Below, in pieces: positions 58,177 to 64,000 of a stretch of DNA of 64,000 nucleotides (within the stretch, counting starts at the first letter, position 1; each line of letters opens with the position of its first letter). The stretch is from Bacteroidota bacterium (GTDB lineage: Bacteria > Bacteroidota > Bacteroidia > Bacteroidales > GCA-2711565), in contig JAHIVC010000099.1 in the NCBI GenBank assembly GCA_018816945.1, forward strand, positions 440,554-504,553, read 5' to 3'. The position numbers and the translations under genes are program-made. The notes below the pieces were generated by a model. The model made no database searches, was not told the origin of the DNA, and saw only the letters and a program-made list of their open reading frames with translations.

Positions 58177-58552
58177 ATTAAAACCCTGGTGTATCGAAGC
58201 ATTCGTTTGTCATTTTTGAAATTGGGCAGGCCTGAAAAAACGGCGGGCAAGCGCTGGGTTGTGTGCTGGGAGCATCGTTTTTTCATGTTTTTTGGTTTTA
58301 TACTGAGCTTTTTGTCGAAGTATCAAAAAAAGAACATATAACATCTTTCTTCTGTTCTTTTGTCTTCCTGCCCTTCCGGCTGGGAGTGTGGAGAAGCAAA
58401 GAAAAGAACAGTTAAACATTCTTTATATGTTCTTTTGTCTTGCCACAAAAGAACCAAAAGATCAAAAGATTCCGATCCAAACCTTCCCCCTCGCCTAAGG
58501 CGAGGCCACTCCCTGACATCGCGGAATCTTGGGCCCACGCTTAATTAAAACA
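58177..58552. repeat. Gene-free repeat stretch
   Basis: No gene is seen. TGTTCTTTTGTCTT occurs at 58353-58366 and again at 58428-58441. AGAACATATA (58331-58340) is the reverse complement of TATATGTTCT (58424-58433), so the segment could fold on itself. A perfect hairpin CCTCGCC-TAA-GGCGAGG is at 58489-58505. Confidence 0.6.
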
Positions 58553-58786
58553 GCACCCTGAGTGATTTCGAAGAAATCTTACCGAAGGGTGCACAGGGCA
58601 TTTCGGTACTTTTTGCATTCGCAAAAAACTCAATGCCCTTATTTATCGCACCCTGAGTGCGAAGCATATTGAAGGGTGCAAGCAAGGACGTTTCGATACT
58701 TTCCCGATTTCATCGGGAACACTCAACGTCCACCAAGGGCTGCACCCTGAGTGATCCCGAATTTTCGGGATCTTACCGAAGGGTGC
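58553..58786. repeat. Array of five nested REP-like palindromes
   Basis: Three units have outer arms GCACCCTGAGTG and GAAGGGTGC: 58553-58592 (inner GATTTC/GAAATC), 58648-58679 (little inner stem) and 58742-58786 (inner GATCCCGA/TCGGGATC). Between them are two units of the same design but with other arms: 58596-58638 (GGGCATT/AATGCCC with inner TTTTTGC/GCAAAAA) and 58686-58731 (GGACGTT/AACGTCC with inner CCCGAT/ATCGGG). A single related copy lies at 20684-20726. Confidence 0.85.
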
Positions 58787-58788
58787 TT

Positions 58789-59202
58789 TCAACTGTTTTC
58801 CAAACAATTAACAATGGCTTTTATGTATTCATCCCATTGCAAAGGTTTACGAAAGTATGCCTTTGCCCCTCGTATCATACAATTTTCGGCATAATGCGCT
58901 GCCGACTGCGTGCTTTGTACAATAATGGGCGTTAGCATTTCCTGCCTTAAGCTAAAAAGGTGTTCGTAATGCAAATGACCGTTAAAGTAAATTTCCGTAA
59001 GGATTAAATCGGGAGGGTTTTCCTGAACCAGCCAAAGGGCATGCCTGAGGCTTTTGGTATATTCAAGTTTTATTTTAAATTTTTTTAATTGAAAATGATG
59101 AAGCTCATAATTGATTTCATCGGGATCGATTAAAAGGATACGTTTGCCGAAGCAGGCCTGAGAAGCTTGCCCGGGCTTTTGCATCATGTGTGATTTTTGC
59201 AT
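58789..59202 (-). CDS. Lone receiver-like protein lacking the phosphoacceptor Asp
   Basis: This 137-residue protein has the fold pattern of a response-regulator receiver: RILLIDPDEINYE with acidic-pocket residues (about D26, D28), LILTEIYFNG, IIVQSTQS with the conserved Ser/Thr, and AYFRKPL with the conserved Lys (K119) followed by Pro. At the phosphorylation site the usual Asp is Glu (E70), so ordinary phosphorylation is unlikely and the protein may be locked in one state. There is no output domain and no kinase nearby. It sits among repeats, and its 3' end touches the REP-like array. Confidence 0.75.
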   Translation of the reverse strand: MQKSHMMQKPGQASQACFGKRILLIDPDEINYELHHFQLKKFKIKLEYTKSLRHALWLVQENPPDLILTEIYFNGHLHYEHLFSLRQEMLTPIIVQSTQSAAHYAENCMIRGAKAYFRKPLQWDEYIKAIVNCLENS

Positions 59203-59251: not shown

Positions 59252-59311
59252 TGCTATGTTCCACATTGATTGGGGAGATCCTCTTTGTGTCATAGGCAAG
59301 GAGGATAAATA

Positions 59312-59409
59312 ATTCTACTTCGCGGCACTTCGACTTAATTCGACTACCCTTCGACTTCGCTTCGGGCGGGCGCTCATAACGAGTCGCTCAGTGTACTGCT
59401 TCGTAGAAT
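59312..59409. repeat. REP-like element bounded by ATTCTAC/GTAGAAT
   Basis: ATTCTAC (59312-59318) and GTAGAAT (59403-59409) are inverted ends of a 98-base segment. Its interior repeats CTTCGACTT-like words (CACTTCGACTT, CCTTCGACTTCGCTTCGGG) and contains GCGACTCGTT-type sequence in reverse, a common style of Bacteroidota intergenic repeat. No gene is present. Confidence 0.55.
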
Positions 59410-59437
59410 AAAAAAAAGCGTGGAACTTAGCCTACTC

Positions 59438-59551
59438 GTCTGAGAGGTACCGCCAGGCACCCACACCTACAAATAAGCAAGCCCACGCCTTGGCGTGAGC
59501 GTTTCTGCTTAATCTTGTAGGTCTTAGTTATTTCTGGCGGTTTTCTCAGAC
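59438..59551. other. Unexplained 114-nt bulged hairpin (structured RNA or mobile-element fold)
   Basis: Five successive inverted segments pair in register: GTCTGAGA/TCTCAGAC, ACCGCCAG/CTGGCGGT (59449-59456/59534-59541), ACCTACAA/TTGTAGGT (59465-59472/59515-59522), TAAGCA/TGCTTA (59474-59479/59506-59511) and CACGCC/GGCGTG (59484-59489/59492-59497). Internal loops lie between the stems. On the minus strand it is followed after 20 nt by CCACGC and eight T. No coding frame covers it. It is not a tRNA. Confidence 0.6.
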
Positions 59552-59810
59552 TAGATTATTAGCTAACGCTATATTTTATATGTCTTTATTTTATAATTCC
59601 GCCATAGGCGGATAAATTCTCATAGGTTTTGTTTTTGGTTTAAACAAAGATAAATGTTTTTATACAAGATGGGGGAGGAAAAATTGGAATGGCTAACGCG
59701 GGCCTGTATTAGCTTTTATTAAATAACTTCAGTTCGATCTAACTAAGCATTTCTCTTGAAACTGATTCAATATGTCTGAAATTTTAGCCTTTTGAGCTAA
59801 TAAGACGTTA
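59552..59810. other. Gene-free stretch left of the short tandem repeats
   Basis: No gene is seen. It contains a small palindrome (CCGCCATAGGCGG, 59602-59614) and a copy of GCTAACGCGGGC (59691-59702) shared with the fumarase-remnant junction. Confidence 0.5.
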
Positions 59811-59959
59811 GAGTTATAAATTATGAGTTATGAATTATGAGTTATGATAAACCTACTAACTACTGTCTACTAACTACTATCTTGAATTGTCTTGAATCTT
59901 GTGTCTTGAATCTTGTCTTGAATCTTGAATCTAAAGTCTAATGTCTTACATCTTAATTT
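59811..59959. repeat. Short tandem repeats 3' of the RhuM gene
   Basis: Three kinds of simple repeat follow one another: GAGTTATGAATTAT-type units (59811-59848), CTACTAACTACTGT-type units (59851-59879) and TCTTGAATCTTGT-type units (59880-59932). They abut the stop of the RhuM gene. The units are too short and irregular for a CRISPR array. Confidence 0.75.
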
Positions 59960-59960
59960 G

Positions 59961-60998
59961 TTATTTAATTTTTTCTTTATTTGATTCTTTCTTTTTATTT
60001 TTAATTTCCTGCTCTAATTTTTTTAATTCTTCCAAATCTTCTTTGTCCGCTTGTATTGCTTCGTACTCTTTTCGCCTCTGGTCAAATTGTGAGTAAGTTT
60101 CACTTACTTGTTTTTCCATTTCAACTTTACTTATCGAACCTGCGTTTGTTAATATTTTTTTGTCCTGAAAATCAAGGATTCTATCAACATTCTCACGCCA
60201 AAAATCAATTGTTATATCCATTCGGTTTTTGGCTCTTAATTCTGCACTTTCAAGAAAGATAACTACCAATCGGTTTAGTATGTCAATTTCAGGATGAGTC
60301 AGGTAGTTTTTTGCAATGAAAATATCTTGTTTCCTTACAATTGAACCTTTCCAAGATGTTAAGTTCATATTTGGTTTTTCGGCATTTGCTCGCTCAACAA
60401 TTAATTCAGCAGCGGTTTTCCCGGTTACCGCAAAATGAAGTTTATTTTGTGTTTCTGCAAAAAACATTTGAGTTGATTTATCATCCGCATCATAATCACT
60501 ACAAAGTGCAAACAAGTCTTTGATTTTTTGGTAAAAACGTTTTTCCGATGCACGTATATCTCGAATTTGTTCAAGCAATTCATCGAAATAGTCGGGCCTG
60601 CCATCTGGATTTTTCAGCCGTTCATTATCCATCACAAACCCTTTTACCATATATTCTTTCAGGTTTTTATTTGCCCAAATCCTGAATTGTGTGCCTCGTT
60701 TACTTCGAACCCGAAAACCGATTGCCAAAATCATGTCGAGCGAGTAGAAAGTAACGCTATATTCTTTGCCATCGGCGGCAGTTGTTAAGTAATCCTTAAT
60801 AACTGAATTTTGCTCTAATTCTCCTTCTTTCAGTATGTTTGATATGTGCATGCTAATATTTGGAACAGAGGTGGCAAAAAGTTCGGCAAGCTGATTTTGG
60901 TTCATCCAAATATTGCCGTCTTTGGCGTATAAAGCTACCGATGCTTTTCCATCGGCAGTTTTATAAATGATTATATTTTGTTGGCTATTGTTGTCCAT
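59961..60998 (-). CDS. RhuM-family protein coupled to restriction-modification
   Basis: This 345-residue cytosolic protein belongs to the virulence RhuM family. The N-terminus contains a helix-turn-helix-like segment (WMNQNQLAELFATSVPNISMHI) followed by the conserved block SVTFYSLDMILAIGFRVRSKRGTQFRIWAN. The C-terminal 60 residues are a highly charged coiled coil. RhuM genes often sit in genomic islands and next to type I or type IIG restriction genes. Here it begins two bases after the stop of the restriction-modification gene, so the two are one transcription unit. The molecular role is not established. Confidence 0.9.
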   Translation of the reverse strand: MDNNSQQNIIIYKTADGKASVALYAKDGNIWMNQNQLAELFATSVPNISMHISNILKEGELEQNSVIKDYLTTAADGKEYSVTFYSLDMILAIGFRVRSKRGTQFRIWANKNLKEYMVKGFVMDNERLKNPDGRPDYFDELLEQIRDIRASEKRFYQKIKDLFALCSDYDADDKSTQMFFAETQNKLHFAVTGKTAAELIVERANAEKPNMNLTSWKGSIVRKQDIFIAKNYLTHPEIDILNRLVVIFLESAELRAKNRMDITIDFWRENVDRILDFQDKKILTNAGSISKVEMEKQVSETYSQFDQRRKEYEAIQADKEDLEELKKLEQEIKNKKKESNKEKIK

Positions 60999-61000
60999 AA

Positions 61001-64000
61001 TTACTTTGTCGAATTTTCTACAATGGCGATTTCTTCTGCTGTCAAACCGTAAAGTTGGTAAACCAATTGGTCGATTTGGTTTTCTAAATCCTTTGTTTCG
61101 GCTGAATTAGCAGATTGAATTTTTAAAACTAATTCTCTGATACCATAATATATTTCATTTTCCAATTTTGGAATTGGAAATGAATTCAAATATTGTGATG
61201 AGATTTTAAAAAAGCCACCTTGCTTAATCGGACATAAAGAAGTCATTAAAAAATGTGATACTTTTGAGTTGAGAATTCCCAAAATCACTTCACTCAATTG
61301 CTTATCATTAGGTTGAATTGCAAAAACTCGACCAACACTAAACATATAACCGATTTCATCTAAACAGTATGTATTTTTTGAAACAATATACCCGACTAAA
61401 ATCTTTTTTTCATCAAAAATGTTTATCAAACCTTTTCGAGTATAGGAATACCAGACTCGACCCATTTCTTTGAAGGTTTTTCTGCTGTCCATTCTATTTT
61501 CGAGTTCACTTTTAAAATTTAGCAGATAATTGTAGCAGTTTGGAAAAGAAGTCTTAAATGATAGTTTTTCTATAATTTCGGTTGCATTATTATCTCCTAA
61601 CCTGTATGGATAAATACATTTTTTAATCGGCTTCTGTAAGTTGTATTTTTTAGGCTCTTTGCCCATTATTACAGGCTTAATTATATCTTCTTCTAAATGG
61701 TGTTCTTCGATAGTTTTATGATCCACAAAAAAAGCTTTGTCAAAACCTGTGAAGCAGCCTGAATTTATGACCGCAATTGACCCAAGGTTTTGAAATGATT
61801 GAAGTTTATTCAGTAGATTATGATGTTTATTATTTTTTAGAACCCAATTTCCTTTGCCAAAATTTGCTTGGTTATAGGATTCATAACTTGACTCATTCAA
61901 ACTGTCGATAATACTGGAAAGTGAATCAATCTTTTTGAACTCAGTATTTTCAGGTTTAGACTTATTGATGAAGAATATACCTGTATAAGTTATTGCTTCT
62001 TCAAAAATTGGCAAGTCGCCAAAGTCAACAATTCTTGAAACCTTATATTGAGTTAAGAACTGTCTCAGTCCCTGCCCATATTCAGAAGACAAGAAAAGCG
62101 TTGGATTTATGAAAGATAAACCGCTGTTTTCTTTTAGCAGAGAAATTGCCTTTTCAATAAAGAGTAAGTAAATATCAGCTTTTTGAAAGAATGATTTGTA
62201 ATTGGATTTATAATAATCAATAATGTTATGCTCTAAATTTTGAACTCTTATATAAGGCGGATTCCCAATCACCGCGTCAAAGCCTACAAAATCACCATCA
62301 TCATTCAATACTTCGGGAAACTCGAAACGCCATTCAAAAGCGTTTTCGTAAATTTTATTGTTTTTTATATCTTCAAGTTCAGTTTCCAGTTTTCGGGTTT
62401 CTTCGGTAAGTTTCGATACTTTTTTGTTCCATTCAGCCTTTTCCTTTTTGCTCATTTCAAAAAGTTGTTTCTGGTTGGTCATTTGGAACAGTTCGCCGTT
62501 AAGTTTATACAGCTTTTTAACTTTAGGGTCGTTTTGTGATATTTCACTGCGGAAATTGGTTTTGATTTCATTTATCAAGCGTTCCATTTCACGCTTTTGC
62601 TCCTTGCTTTGAGCGTTTCGGTATGTATCAACAGCTAAACGATAACTATCAATTGTCCATTTGCTTGCACTCTTTTTCAATGCTTGTTTTAAATCGGCAT
62701 CAAGGGCAAAACGGCTTATTAAGGAATTTCCGCATTTTATATTGATGTCAATGTTCGGAAGCGTTTCAAGTTCCGTTTCATTTTTGTAATACGCATTTTT
62801 CAAAAGCTCAATCCATAAACGTAAACGGCAAATCTTAACAGAATTTGGGTTTATGTCAACACCAAACAAACAATTTTCAATAATAGTCTGCTTTTCGTGA
62901 AACAAGGCTTCCTGTATGCGCTGGCTTTCTTTGCGTTGCAGTGAGCCTGCCGAACTGTTTGTTGGGTTATATTCAAAAAGTTCCCCGTCTTCGTCGGTTA
63001 CAATCAACTCATCGTTTACCACTTCAAAATGGTATTCTTTCAACCGTCTGCCTTCACGGTCCTGCAATATTTTTAAATCGCTTTTTATTGCAATCATTTC
63101 ATTAAGGGCAGAAACCAAAAAGTGACCGGAACCAACGGCAGGGTCGCAAATCTTTAAGTCGTTGAATATTTTATTGGCTTCGTTCCGGTCTTCAATTTTA
63201 TCGTAAAGCGTATCTATGTCAGTGCAATTCCAACCTTTGGTTTCGTTGAACTTTTGAACCACCGCTTTTCGGATGGTTTCACGGCACATATACATGGTTA
63301 TAAAACCGGGAGTAAAGAACGAACCGTCTTTGTAGCCGTTTATTTTCTCGAAAATCAAACCAAGAACCGAAGCATTGATAAGGGTTTTATTATCTTCCTG
63401 TATTTCTTCGCTACCTTCGCTTGCAAAATCATAGGCATTTAAAAACTCAAACAAATATTCAAGCGGGTTAATATTTCCGCTCCGTTTTTTGCCTGTTGTA
63501 TCTTTTAAAACGGTTTGCGAATAAATCGGGATCGTTTTATCGTTGCGTAAATTGCTGATAAAAATGGTTGAATGTTCTATTTCTGTTGGCTCAAATAGCG
63601 AACTGTTCAGGTAAGGAACTTTTGAAAACTTTGCTTTTACATCTTCGTTTCGCTCATTTTGCTTACGTGCAAGCACTTGAAAAAACAAGCTGTTTAAATC
63701 GTCATAATCCTTTATTTTATCGAAACTGAGAAATTCATATGATCCGCCTGCCGGACGGACAGGCTTGTCGCCCTTCCTGCCATTGCGGGACGAGTTATGA
63801 TAAGTAACTAATTGAGCTTCTAATAATTTCAAAAACAGAATACGGTTTATCCATGTAATACTCAATTCAAGCCCAACATTGAAAAGCCGTTCTTGCAGGT
63901 TTGCCCCAAATTGACCTGGATTTTCAATCCTTGAAATTTTATCAAGACTATCCAACTGGATGATTGCATTTTCTAAAAATGATCCTGTGTTTCTTTCGCC
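61001..64000 (-). CDS. Eco57I-type (type IIG-like) restriction-modification enzyme, 5' end outside window
   Basis: The frame is open to the right edge (the last codons read GERNTGSFLENAIIQLDS), so the N-terminus lies outside and the TTG at 63955 is not a real start. The adenine methyltransferase core has motif I DPAVGSGHFL (near 63140) and catalytic motif IV GNPPYIRV (near 62260). A long charged helical insert separates them (about 62350-62640). The C-terminal third (LNSKVSHFLMT, GGFFKISSQYLNSFPIPK) is a target-recognition domain ending in a helix that reads LVYQLYGLTAEEIAIVE. A nuclease domain would be in the missing N-terminus. An apparent repeat-derived insertion lies at 63743-63763. Confidence 0.9.
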   Translation of the reverse strand, partial: GERNTGSFLENAIIQLDSLDKISRIENPGQFGANLQERLFNVGLELSITWINRILFLKLLEAQLVTYHNSSRNGRKGDKPVRPAGGSYEFLSFDKIKDYDDLNSLFFQVLARKQNERNEDVKAKFSKVPYLNSSLFEPTEIEHSTIFISNLRNDKTIPIYSQTVLKDTTGKKRSGNINPLEYLFEFLNAYDFASEGSEEIQEDNKTLINASVLGLIFEKINGYKDGSFFTPGFITMYMCRETIRKAVVQKFNETKGWNCTDIDTLYDKIEDRNEANKIFNDLKICDPAVGSGHFLVSALNEMIAIKSDLKILQDREGRRLKEYHFEVVNDELIVTDEDGELFEYNPTNSSAGSLQRKESQRIQEALFHEKQTIIENCLFGVDINPNSVKICRLRLWIELLKNAYYKNETELETLPNIDINIKCGNSLISRFALDADLKQALKKSASKWTIDSYRLAVDTYRNAQSKEQKREMERLINEIKTNFRSEISQNDPKVKKLYKLNGELFQMTNQKQLFEMSKKEKAEWNKKVSKLTEETRKLETELEDIKNNKIYENAFEWRFEFPEVLNDDGDFVGFDAVIGNPPYIRVQNLEHNIIDYYKSNYKSFFQKADIYLLFIEKAISLLKENSGLSFINPTLFLSSEYGQGLRQFLTQYKVSRIVDFGDLPIFEEAITYTGIFFINKSKPENTEFKKIDSLSSIIDSLNESSYESYNQANFGKGNWVLKNNKHHNLLNKLQSFQNLGSIAVINSGCFTGFDKAFFVDHKTIEEHHLEEDIIKPVIMGKEPKKYNLQKPIKKCIYPYRLGDNNATEIIEKLSFKTSFPNCYNYLLNFKSELENRMDSRKTFKEMGRVWYSYTRKGLINIFDEKKILVGYIVSKNTYCLDEIGYMFSVGRVFAIQPNDKQLSEVILGILNSKVSHFLMTSLCPIKQGGFFKISSQYLNSFPIPKLENEIYYGIRELVLKIQSANSAETKDLENQIDQLVYQLYGLTAEEIAIVENSTK
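63743..63763. repeat. 21-bp palindromic insertion inside the restriction-modification gene
   Basis: TCCGCCTGCCGGACGGACAGG contains GCCTG, nine bases, then CAGGC (the last base at 63764). On the coding strand it is exactly seven codons, PVRPAGG, splitting DK from SYEFL. It resembles the intergenic GCCTGC/GCAGGC palindromes. Confidence 0.55.

Follow-up and report, generated by a model that had tools for sequence, protein, structure and literature searches.

What does a long, bulged hairpin with a trailing T-run do in a part of a Bacteroidota genome that holds no gene, and is it RNA or DNA that takes this shape? In the 64,000-nucleotide stretch of DNA analysed here as a whole (the window), an initial annotation made from the letters alone had described five inverted segments in register, closing as a 114-nt rod on a two-base tip. 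All five were found, paired in register on the minus strand, together with eight T at 59417-59410, and there is no open reading frame (ORF) of 60 amino acids or more on either strand of 59300-59960. The minimum free energy (MFE) of 59391-59571 is -71.3 kcal/mol, as compared with -45.4 kcal/mol (sd 3.9) for 200 dinucleotide shuffles, none of which folds as low (z = -6.6). The hairpin is real, and the RNA is read off the minus strand, from 59573 to 59410 of the window. The rod itself stands as described; by the covariance model the RNA is wider (59573-59413) and includes an outer helix, AGCGT/ACGCT, and the folding program replaces the two-base tip by a tip loop of four nucleotides. The features of the locus are as follows.

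59645-59652, minus strand: putative promoter -7 element TATCTTTG, a TAnnTTTG motif by sequence.
59410-59573, minus strand: leader RNA from its outer helix to the end of the U-run (cmsearch match 59573-59413 with model R1, 103 bits; the same place in G000 gives 126.8 bits with model R2; U-run by sequence).
59551-59544/59445-59438, 59541-59534/59456-59449, 59523-59514/59473-59465, 59512-59506/59479-59474 and 59500-59492/59489-59481, minus strand: paired segments of the rod, some arms being joined by bulges.
59544-59551, minus strand: P3 5' arm GTCTGAGA, partner 59445-59438; variable and compensated, with 9 of the 11 pairs of covariance helix 3 changed on both sides.
59438-59445, minus strand: P3 3' arm TCTCAGAC, by covariation and sequence.
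59534-59541, minus strand: P4 5' arm ACCGCCAG, partner 59456-59449; variable and compensated (helix 4: 6 of 7 pairs changed on both sides, 100% of cells paired).
59449-59456, minus strand: P4 3' arm CTGGCGGT, by covariation and sequence.
59514-59523, minus strand: P5 5' arm GACCTACAAG, partner 59473-59465; variable and compensated (helix 6: 8 of 8 pairs changed on both sides).
59465-59473, minus strand: P5 3' arm TTTGTAGGT, by covariation and sequence.
59492-59500, minus strand: apical helix P8, 5' arm GCTCACGCC (helix 8: 99.1% of cells paired).
59481-59489, minus strand: P8 3' arm GGCGTGGGC, which doubles as the 5' arm of the alternative terminator, by covariation, folding and partner swaps.
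59418-59428, minus strand: tail AAGTTCCACGC, with three alternative partners: the outer helix of the rod, which takes in the 3' end of the tail, the P8 3' arm (terminator) and 59265-59258.
59410-59489, minus strand: alternative fold, a predicted terminator hairpin plus U8 (-38.8 kcal/mol folded alone), ending directly at U8.
59258-59265, minus strand: TGTGGAAC, possible second partner of the tail (tail part GTTCCACG), about 55-60 nt before the ATG at 59202; the evidence is weaker than in other lineages.
58789-59202, minus strand: downstream gene for a 137-aa protein with a response-regulator receiver domain (PF00072, E = 1.2e-10), 210 nt past the RNA.

The same strand carries, immediately upstream of the RNA (window 59961-63955), a RhuM-family gene (PF13310) and a gene for an Eco57I-type restriction-modification methylase (PF07669). 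Past the receiver gene (window 58540-58800), three like palindromic units, approximately CACCCTGAGTG...CGAAGGGTGC, have by eye the look of a dispersed repeat.

The covariance search proposed in the initial annotation returned many homologues with compensatory changes, so that the outcome which would have spoken against an RNA, a lack of homologues with compensatory changes, did not occur. A first model (R1), built on 6 copies, recovered all 30 loci, and a second (R2) was built on 29 copies. The source genome has two R2 matches at E <= 0.01; by blastn its second copy is 84% identical, and blastn matches occur in 14 of 99 related genomes, some of these 14 being short. R2 finds homologues in 121 of the 295 genomes drawn from the order (at most nine candidates being scored per genome) and, at E <= 1e-4, in 41 of 296 drawn from the phylum. 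When 150 candidates were scored at E <= 0.01, four genomes gave 8 (G003), 14 (G084), 19 (G276) and 21 (G178) matches. A pattern for the apical region occurs in at least 116 stretches of named genomes; the 80 of these that were searched with the covariance model all hold the RNA (81 matches), the hosts including Sunxiuqinia indica, Millionella massiliensis, Aequorivita echinoideorum, Capnocytophaga periodontitidis and one contig labelled Ignavibacteriales. The merging of 162 rows left 138 distinct copies, in which L189 and L192 (cores 99% alike, both at contig ends) are possibly one copy counted twice; L012 and L014 were left out of the first alignment, and A6 has L014 and not L012. Several copies (L090, L094, L091 and others) lie at or near contig ends, as expected where repeats break assemblies; two are 158 nt from a contig end, with nearly the same downstream sequence.

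That the rod is formed by an RNA with compensatory stem changes is shown by the comparison of 29 sequences. In an alignment fitted to the structure, 94.1% of the cells of the rod pairs are paired, as compared with 35.0-46.5% after sliding of the partner columns; both-side changes occur in 32 pairs (266 cells in total), and in 500 shuffles the observed value was not reached on any of five measures. An independent MAFFT alignment still gives both-side changes in 14 of 27 pairs, in P3, P4 and elsewhere; RNAalifold recovered the rod only partly from the first MAFFT alignment, so that the model-fitted alignment was needed. A U.G pair of the apical helix is kept in 26 of the 29 seed sequences, which argues for an RNA rather than a DNA cruciform.

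The position of the RNA is likewise conserved. Of 127 copies, 120 have as their next ORF (at least 80 aa) one on the strand of the RNA, four have one on the opposite strand and three have none, 11 of the 138 copies having been left out for less than 400 nt of downstream DNA. The gap between RNA and ORF is 40-69 nt in 53 of these 120 (50-59 nt in 32); upstream ORFs are on the same strand in 74 cases and on the other in 27. The motif TAnnTTTG, the Bacteroidota promoter -7 consensus, occurs within 160 nt upstream in 98 of the 136 copies with sufficient upstream sequence (two were left out), as compared with a shuffled mean of 11.6 (maximum 20) and with 21 of 136 when the other strand of that stretch is read; its median distance before the RNA is 73.5 nt. 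By a crude rule, exported-looking proteins are encoded by 66 of 101 ORFs within 150 nt downstream as against 15 of 80 upstream. Among the downstream proteins, 111 match 145 Pfam families, with BspA-type LRR (10), the receiver domain (6), the T9SS sorting tail (5) and TM2 (4), as well as DNA methylases, helicases and others; some match defence models, and proteins related to the 137-aa receiver protein also follow other copies in the genus. By comparison the RNA is linked to the downstream gene as a cis leader, the control that it would exert being a prediction. Two other settings were noticed by eye. In two Flavobacteriia (L170, L191), a gene lying 78-86 nt upstream of the RNA seems to encode a small serine recombinase, and two more divergent copies in one genome (L244 and L256, G503) lie about 230 nt before genes resembling SusC-type receptors, each with a small opposite-strand gene upstream that looks like an HTH regulator.

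How could such a leader act? The initial annotation had pointed to an alternative pairing, CCACGC with GCGTGG, as a possible switch. This pairing exists, and the homologues support it by folding, partner swaps and base covariation. In each of the 125 scored copies, the MFE structure of the 3' half folded in isolation pairs the 3' strand of P8 with the tail, immediately ahead of the U-run (mean -27.0 kcal/mol; 13 of the 138 were left out, the P8 regex having failed or downstream DNA being too short), while the antisense 3' halves average -18.6 kcal/mol. A U-run of at least five T is found in 124 of 138 copies and a shorter one in 14; the G+C-rich stem followed directly by a U-run, as in an attenuator, is the general predicted arrangement. 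Among the 68 copies lacking a matching 5' AAAA, 57 still have at least five T.

For 91 non-rumen copies, tail and P8 strand from the same copy form a better duplex (-14.33 kcal/mol) than swapped partners (-13.36, sd 0.125, best of 100 -13.67), and the same holds for the whole hairpin (-28.67 versus -26.02 for chimeras, sd 0.25, best of 40 -26.56). The base after CT in P8, just outside the helix, is Watson-Crick with a tail base in 73 of 103 copies (mean of 2000 shuffles 45.7, maximum 58) and, with the rumen clade removed, in 41 of 70 (shuffle maximum 35). In the alignment, 94.6% of the cells of the alternative-fold pairs are paired, as compared with 37.0-56.1% when slid; this support is mostly conservation, since 92.6% remain paired after partners are shuffled, and 80 loci had been picked by a pattern that fixes most P8 letters plus CTTAT, one side of these very pairs. 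Within the alternative hairpin, two inner pairings (P7-P2 strands, GGGT-TACC) fare no better than swapped partners. RNAalifold gave a weak consensus for the 3' half with model-fitted or re-aligned rows; swaps, chimeras and a named structure were therefore used to test this fold.

The tail also has a partner beyond the U-run, between it and the start codon. Over 134 copies the own duplex scores 15.51, versus 13.37 for swapped partners (sd 0.19, maximum of 20 swaps 13.74); in a larger swap set of 123 copies (15 of 138 left out, by P8 regex or downstream length), the values are 15.57 and 13.37 (maximum of 100 swaps 13.83). Clear compensations are seen, for example, in TCAGACCC/GGGTCTGA (L188), CAAACCCA/TGGGTTTG (L054), AATGTCCC/GGGACATT (L141) and TGGTTCC/GGAACCA (L168). 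In the genus of the source genome a weaker partner, GTGGAAC, is present in five of seven loci looked at, and in many copies, for instance before the LRR genes of G276 and G084, no such partner was seen. The tail and the 5' end give a slight excess (10.68 versus 10.40, maximum 10.64). All swaps and shuffles treat the copies without regard to their relatedness. The comparison demonstrates both pairings of the tail, with P8 and with the downstream sequence, as predicted duplexes, and a tail with mutually exclusive partners is the anatomy of an attenuator. In agreement with two competing folds, letters that serve both of them (the P8 3' strand, CTTATTTG and the tail) are fixed, whereas the rod-only helices P3, P4 and P5 vary with compensation; part of this comparison used 47 of 91 non-rumen segments, and part of the fixity of P8 in the later set stems from the pattern-based choice of loci.

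Based on this evidence, we consider it probable that the element is a cis-acting leader RNA of the downstream minus-strand gene and works as a transcription attenuator. We infer the course of transcription, its termination and the on and off states as follows. Transcription would start at the TAnnTTTG promoter and yield an RNA with two exclusive folds. In the rod, the 5' and 3' halves would pair over their full length, the apical GGCGTGGGC would be locked in P8 and the tail kept free of the apical strand, allowing read-through into the gene. In the alternative, the 3' half would pair with itself and the tail, AGYCCCACGC, would capture the apical strand, so that a G+C-rich stem precedes the U-run as an intrinsic terminator and the gene is off. 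In many copies the read-through transcript can also pair its tail with the sequence shortly before the start codon, which may hold the tail away or act on translation. On average, the rod exceeds the 5' half plus terminator in stability by 15.1 kcal/mol (11 of 138 copies were left out of these energies, of the swaps and chimeras and of one RNAalifold run on the 3' half, by P8 regex or downstream length); the terminator would therefore need a factor or kinetics to form, and the balance would be tipped by a factor that acts on the 5' half. Termination by the outer helix of the rod, which likewise runs up to the U-run, is also conceivable.

The stability of the rod also suits a leader without any transcription switch, in which the rod would be a stabilising or translation-controlling 5' structure and the pairing of the tail before the start codon would block or open ribosome access. 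This reading accommodates the covarying downstream pairing, which lies past the U-run and can form in a read-through transcript only, but it leaves unexplained both the covariation of the tail with P8 and the U-run kept in copies that lack matching 5' A's, and we regard it as rather unlikely. A free-standing small RNA that ends at the U-run and acts in trans, the downstream gene being incidental or separately transcribed, would account for the promoter motif of its own, the U-run, and the conserved apical strand with its unpaired segments. Such an RNA is hard to reconcile with the orientation of the downstream ORFs (120 versus 4) or with a covarying partner beyond the U-run; moreover, TAnnTTTG is not enriched on the sense strand in the 160 nt after the RNA (13 of 131, shuffled mean 11.7), and no 6S match reaches the gathering score, so that action in trans appears improbable. 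Control of each copy by an antisense RNA was rejected, as the 160 nt downstream show no enrichment of antisense TAnnTTTG (11 of 131, shuffled mean 15.7).

The history of the copies raises the question of whether the hairpin serves as DNA. The copy of the source genome and that of G001 are 96% identical over a 480-nt stretch covering the gene and 97% in the tail region, as compared with 77% in the stems (random pairs 67%). Similarly, L090 and L094 of G276 have cores 75% alike between upstream and downstream flanks 90% and 98% alike, and twelve pairs combine upstream and downstream values above 0.85 with a core below 0.78. The reverse is also observed: the cores of L096 and L113 are 98.4% alike before unrelated genes, and those of L138 and L153 (96.8%) are more alike than their flanks. 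A site next to a gene that by eye is carbamoyltransferase-like carries an RNA and an LRR gene in G276, a different RNA and another gene in G084, and no RNA match in G187. Pure hypermutation of the stems was rejected, exchange fitting better since some cores are more alike than their flanks; the simplest reading of these comparisons is that recombination exchanges cores and RNA-gene units, and it seems to separate RNA cores from flanks and genes. Donors for the cores of L001, L004, L090 and L094 were not found (best other core 83-86%), and diversifying selection may also have driven the divergence of the stems.

Shared cores between unrelated flanks and genes, near-identical flanks around different cores, and one site carrying different RNA-gene units could thus be read as the marks of a recombination or mobile-cassette site, its hairpin used as DNA and spreading with promoter and gene. 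The kept U.G pair of P8, the strand-specific alternative fold and the tight placing relative to start codon and promoter speak against this, and we consider it very improbable. The folded end of a mobile element in its simple form, suggested in the initial annotation with many identical copies as its sign, is at odds with two copies only 84% identical in the source genome, with the U.G pair and with an orientation that follows the downstream gene. A MITE or other mobile-element repeat was dismissed because the source genome lacks near-identical copies with defined ends and cores differ within one genome, as was a phage or plasmid origin, the tested pattern occurring in 0 of 2.9 million viral contigs and blastn with two copies matching no phage or plasmid record.

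To our knowledge, little has been mapped of how RNA regulates surface and accessory genes in Bacteroidota, and this class of leader RNA stands at the start of many such surface-protein and accessory genes. Returning to the attenuator, a leader found in 121 of the 295 genomes sampled from the order, in up to 21 copies per genome and built for two states, would indicate a regulon and a signal that have yet to be named. More tentatively, and with considerable doubt, the copies might form a phylum-wide class of bistable leaders that senses one shared signal, such as a second messenger or a dedicated protein, and thereby sets a surface and defence regulon, the stems being exchanged or pushed apart until every copy is distinct and the switch letters of both folds staying fixed. 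Fixed letters in both folds against varying letters in one fold offer a clean natural test of a bistable RNA, and stem divergence between near-identical flanks raises the question of its driving force.

How does this RNA compare with known systems? At the gathering score, Rfam 15 has no match anywhere in the window, and the four matches in 14 other loci are not on the RNA; under permissive settings the element scores at most 18.3 bits, for a cut-off of 55. The likeness to 6S RNA suggested at the outset did not hold: 6S RNA and 6S-Flavo (RF01685) share with it a long bulged rod in Bacteroidota, but the leader RNA differs in its many copies per genome, its position before genes and its alternative terminator fold, and neither family matches it at the gathering score in the window or the 14 other loci, nor in permissive scans of the element and of 16 loci. 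HMP2_4205 (PMC8040213), a palindromic candidate RNA of 132 bp described from Bacteroidetes in the neighbourhood of TPR genes, is alike in phylum, size, palindromic form and predicted terminator, as compared by description rather than sequence. Two further Bacteroidetes motifs, Bacteroides-2 and GUCCY-hairpin, are given without Rfam number in PMC2864571. The literature searched, supplementary motif sets being outside its scope, yielded no description of the leader RNA, which is apparently an undescribed class without an Rfam family.

The UpxY, LoaP and put-type leaders depend on proteins for antitermination; they too are leader RNAs near a promoter that could govern read-through, whereas the present RNA precedes single, varied genes and carries its own alternative terminator. 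Riboswitches with a terminator expression platform include multi-copy second-messenger classes, such as c-di-GMP-I. The leader RNA resembles these, c-di-GMP-I above all, in its leader position, its exclusive folds, its intrinsic-terminator-like 3' half and its many copies per genome before unrelated surface and regulatory genes; it differs in that its rod is long and unbranched, its stems vary strongly, its tail has a second partner past the U-run and no Rfam family matches it at the gathering score. Ligand binding being part of the definition of the class, it is a candidate riboswitch, and what comparison and folding predict is a structured cis leader (120 of 127 on the strand of the gene) with exclusive folds and an expression platform.
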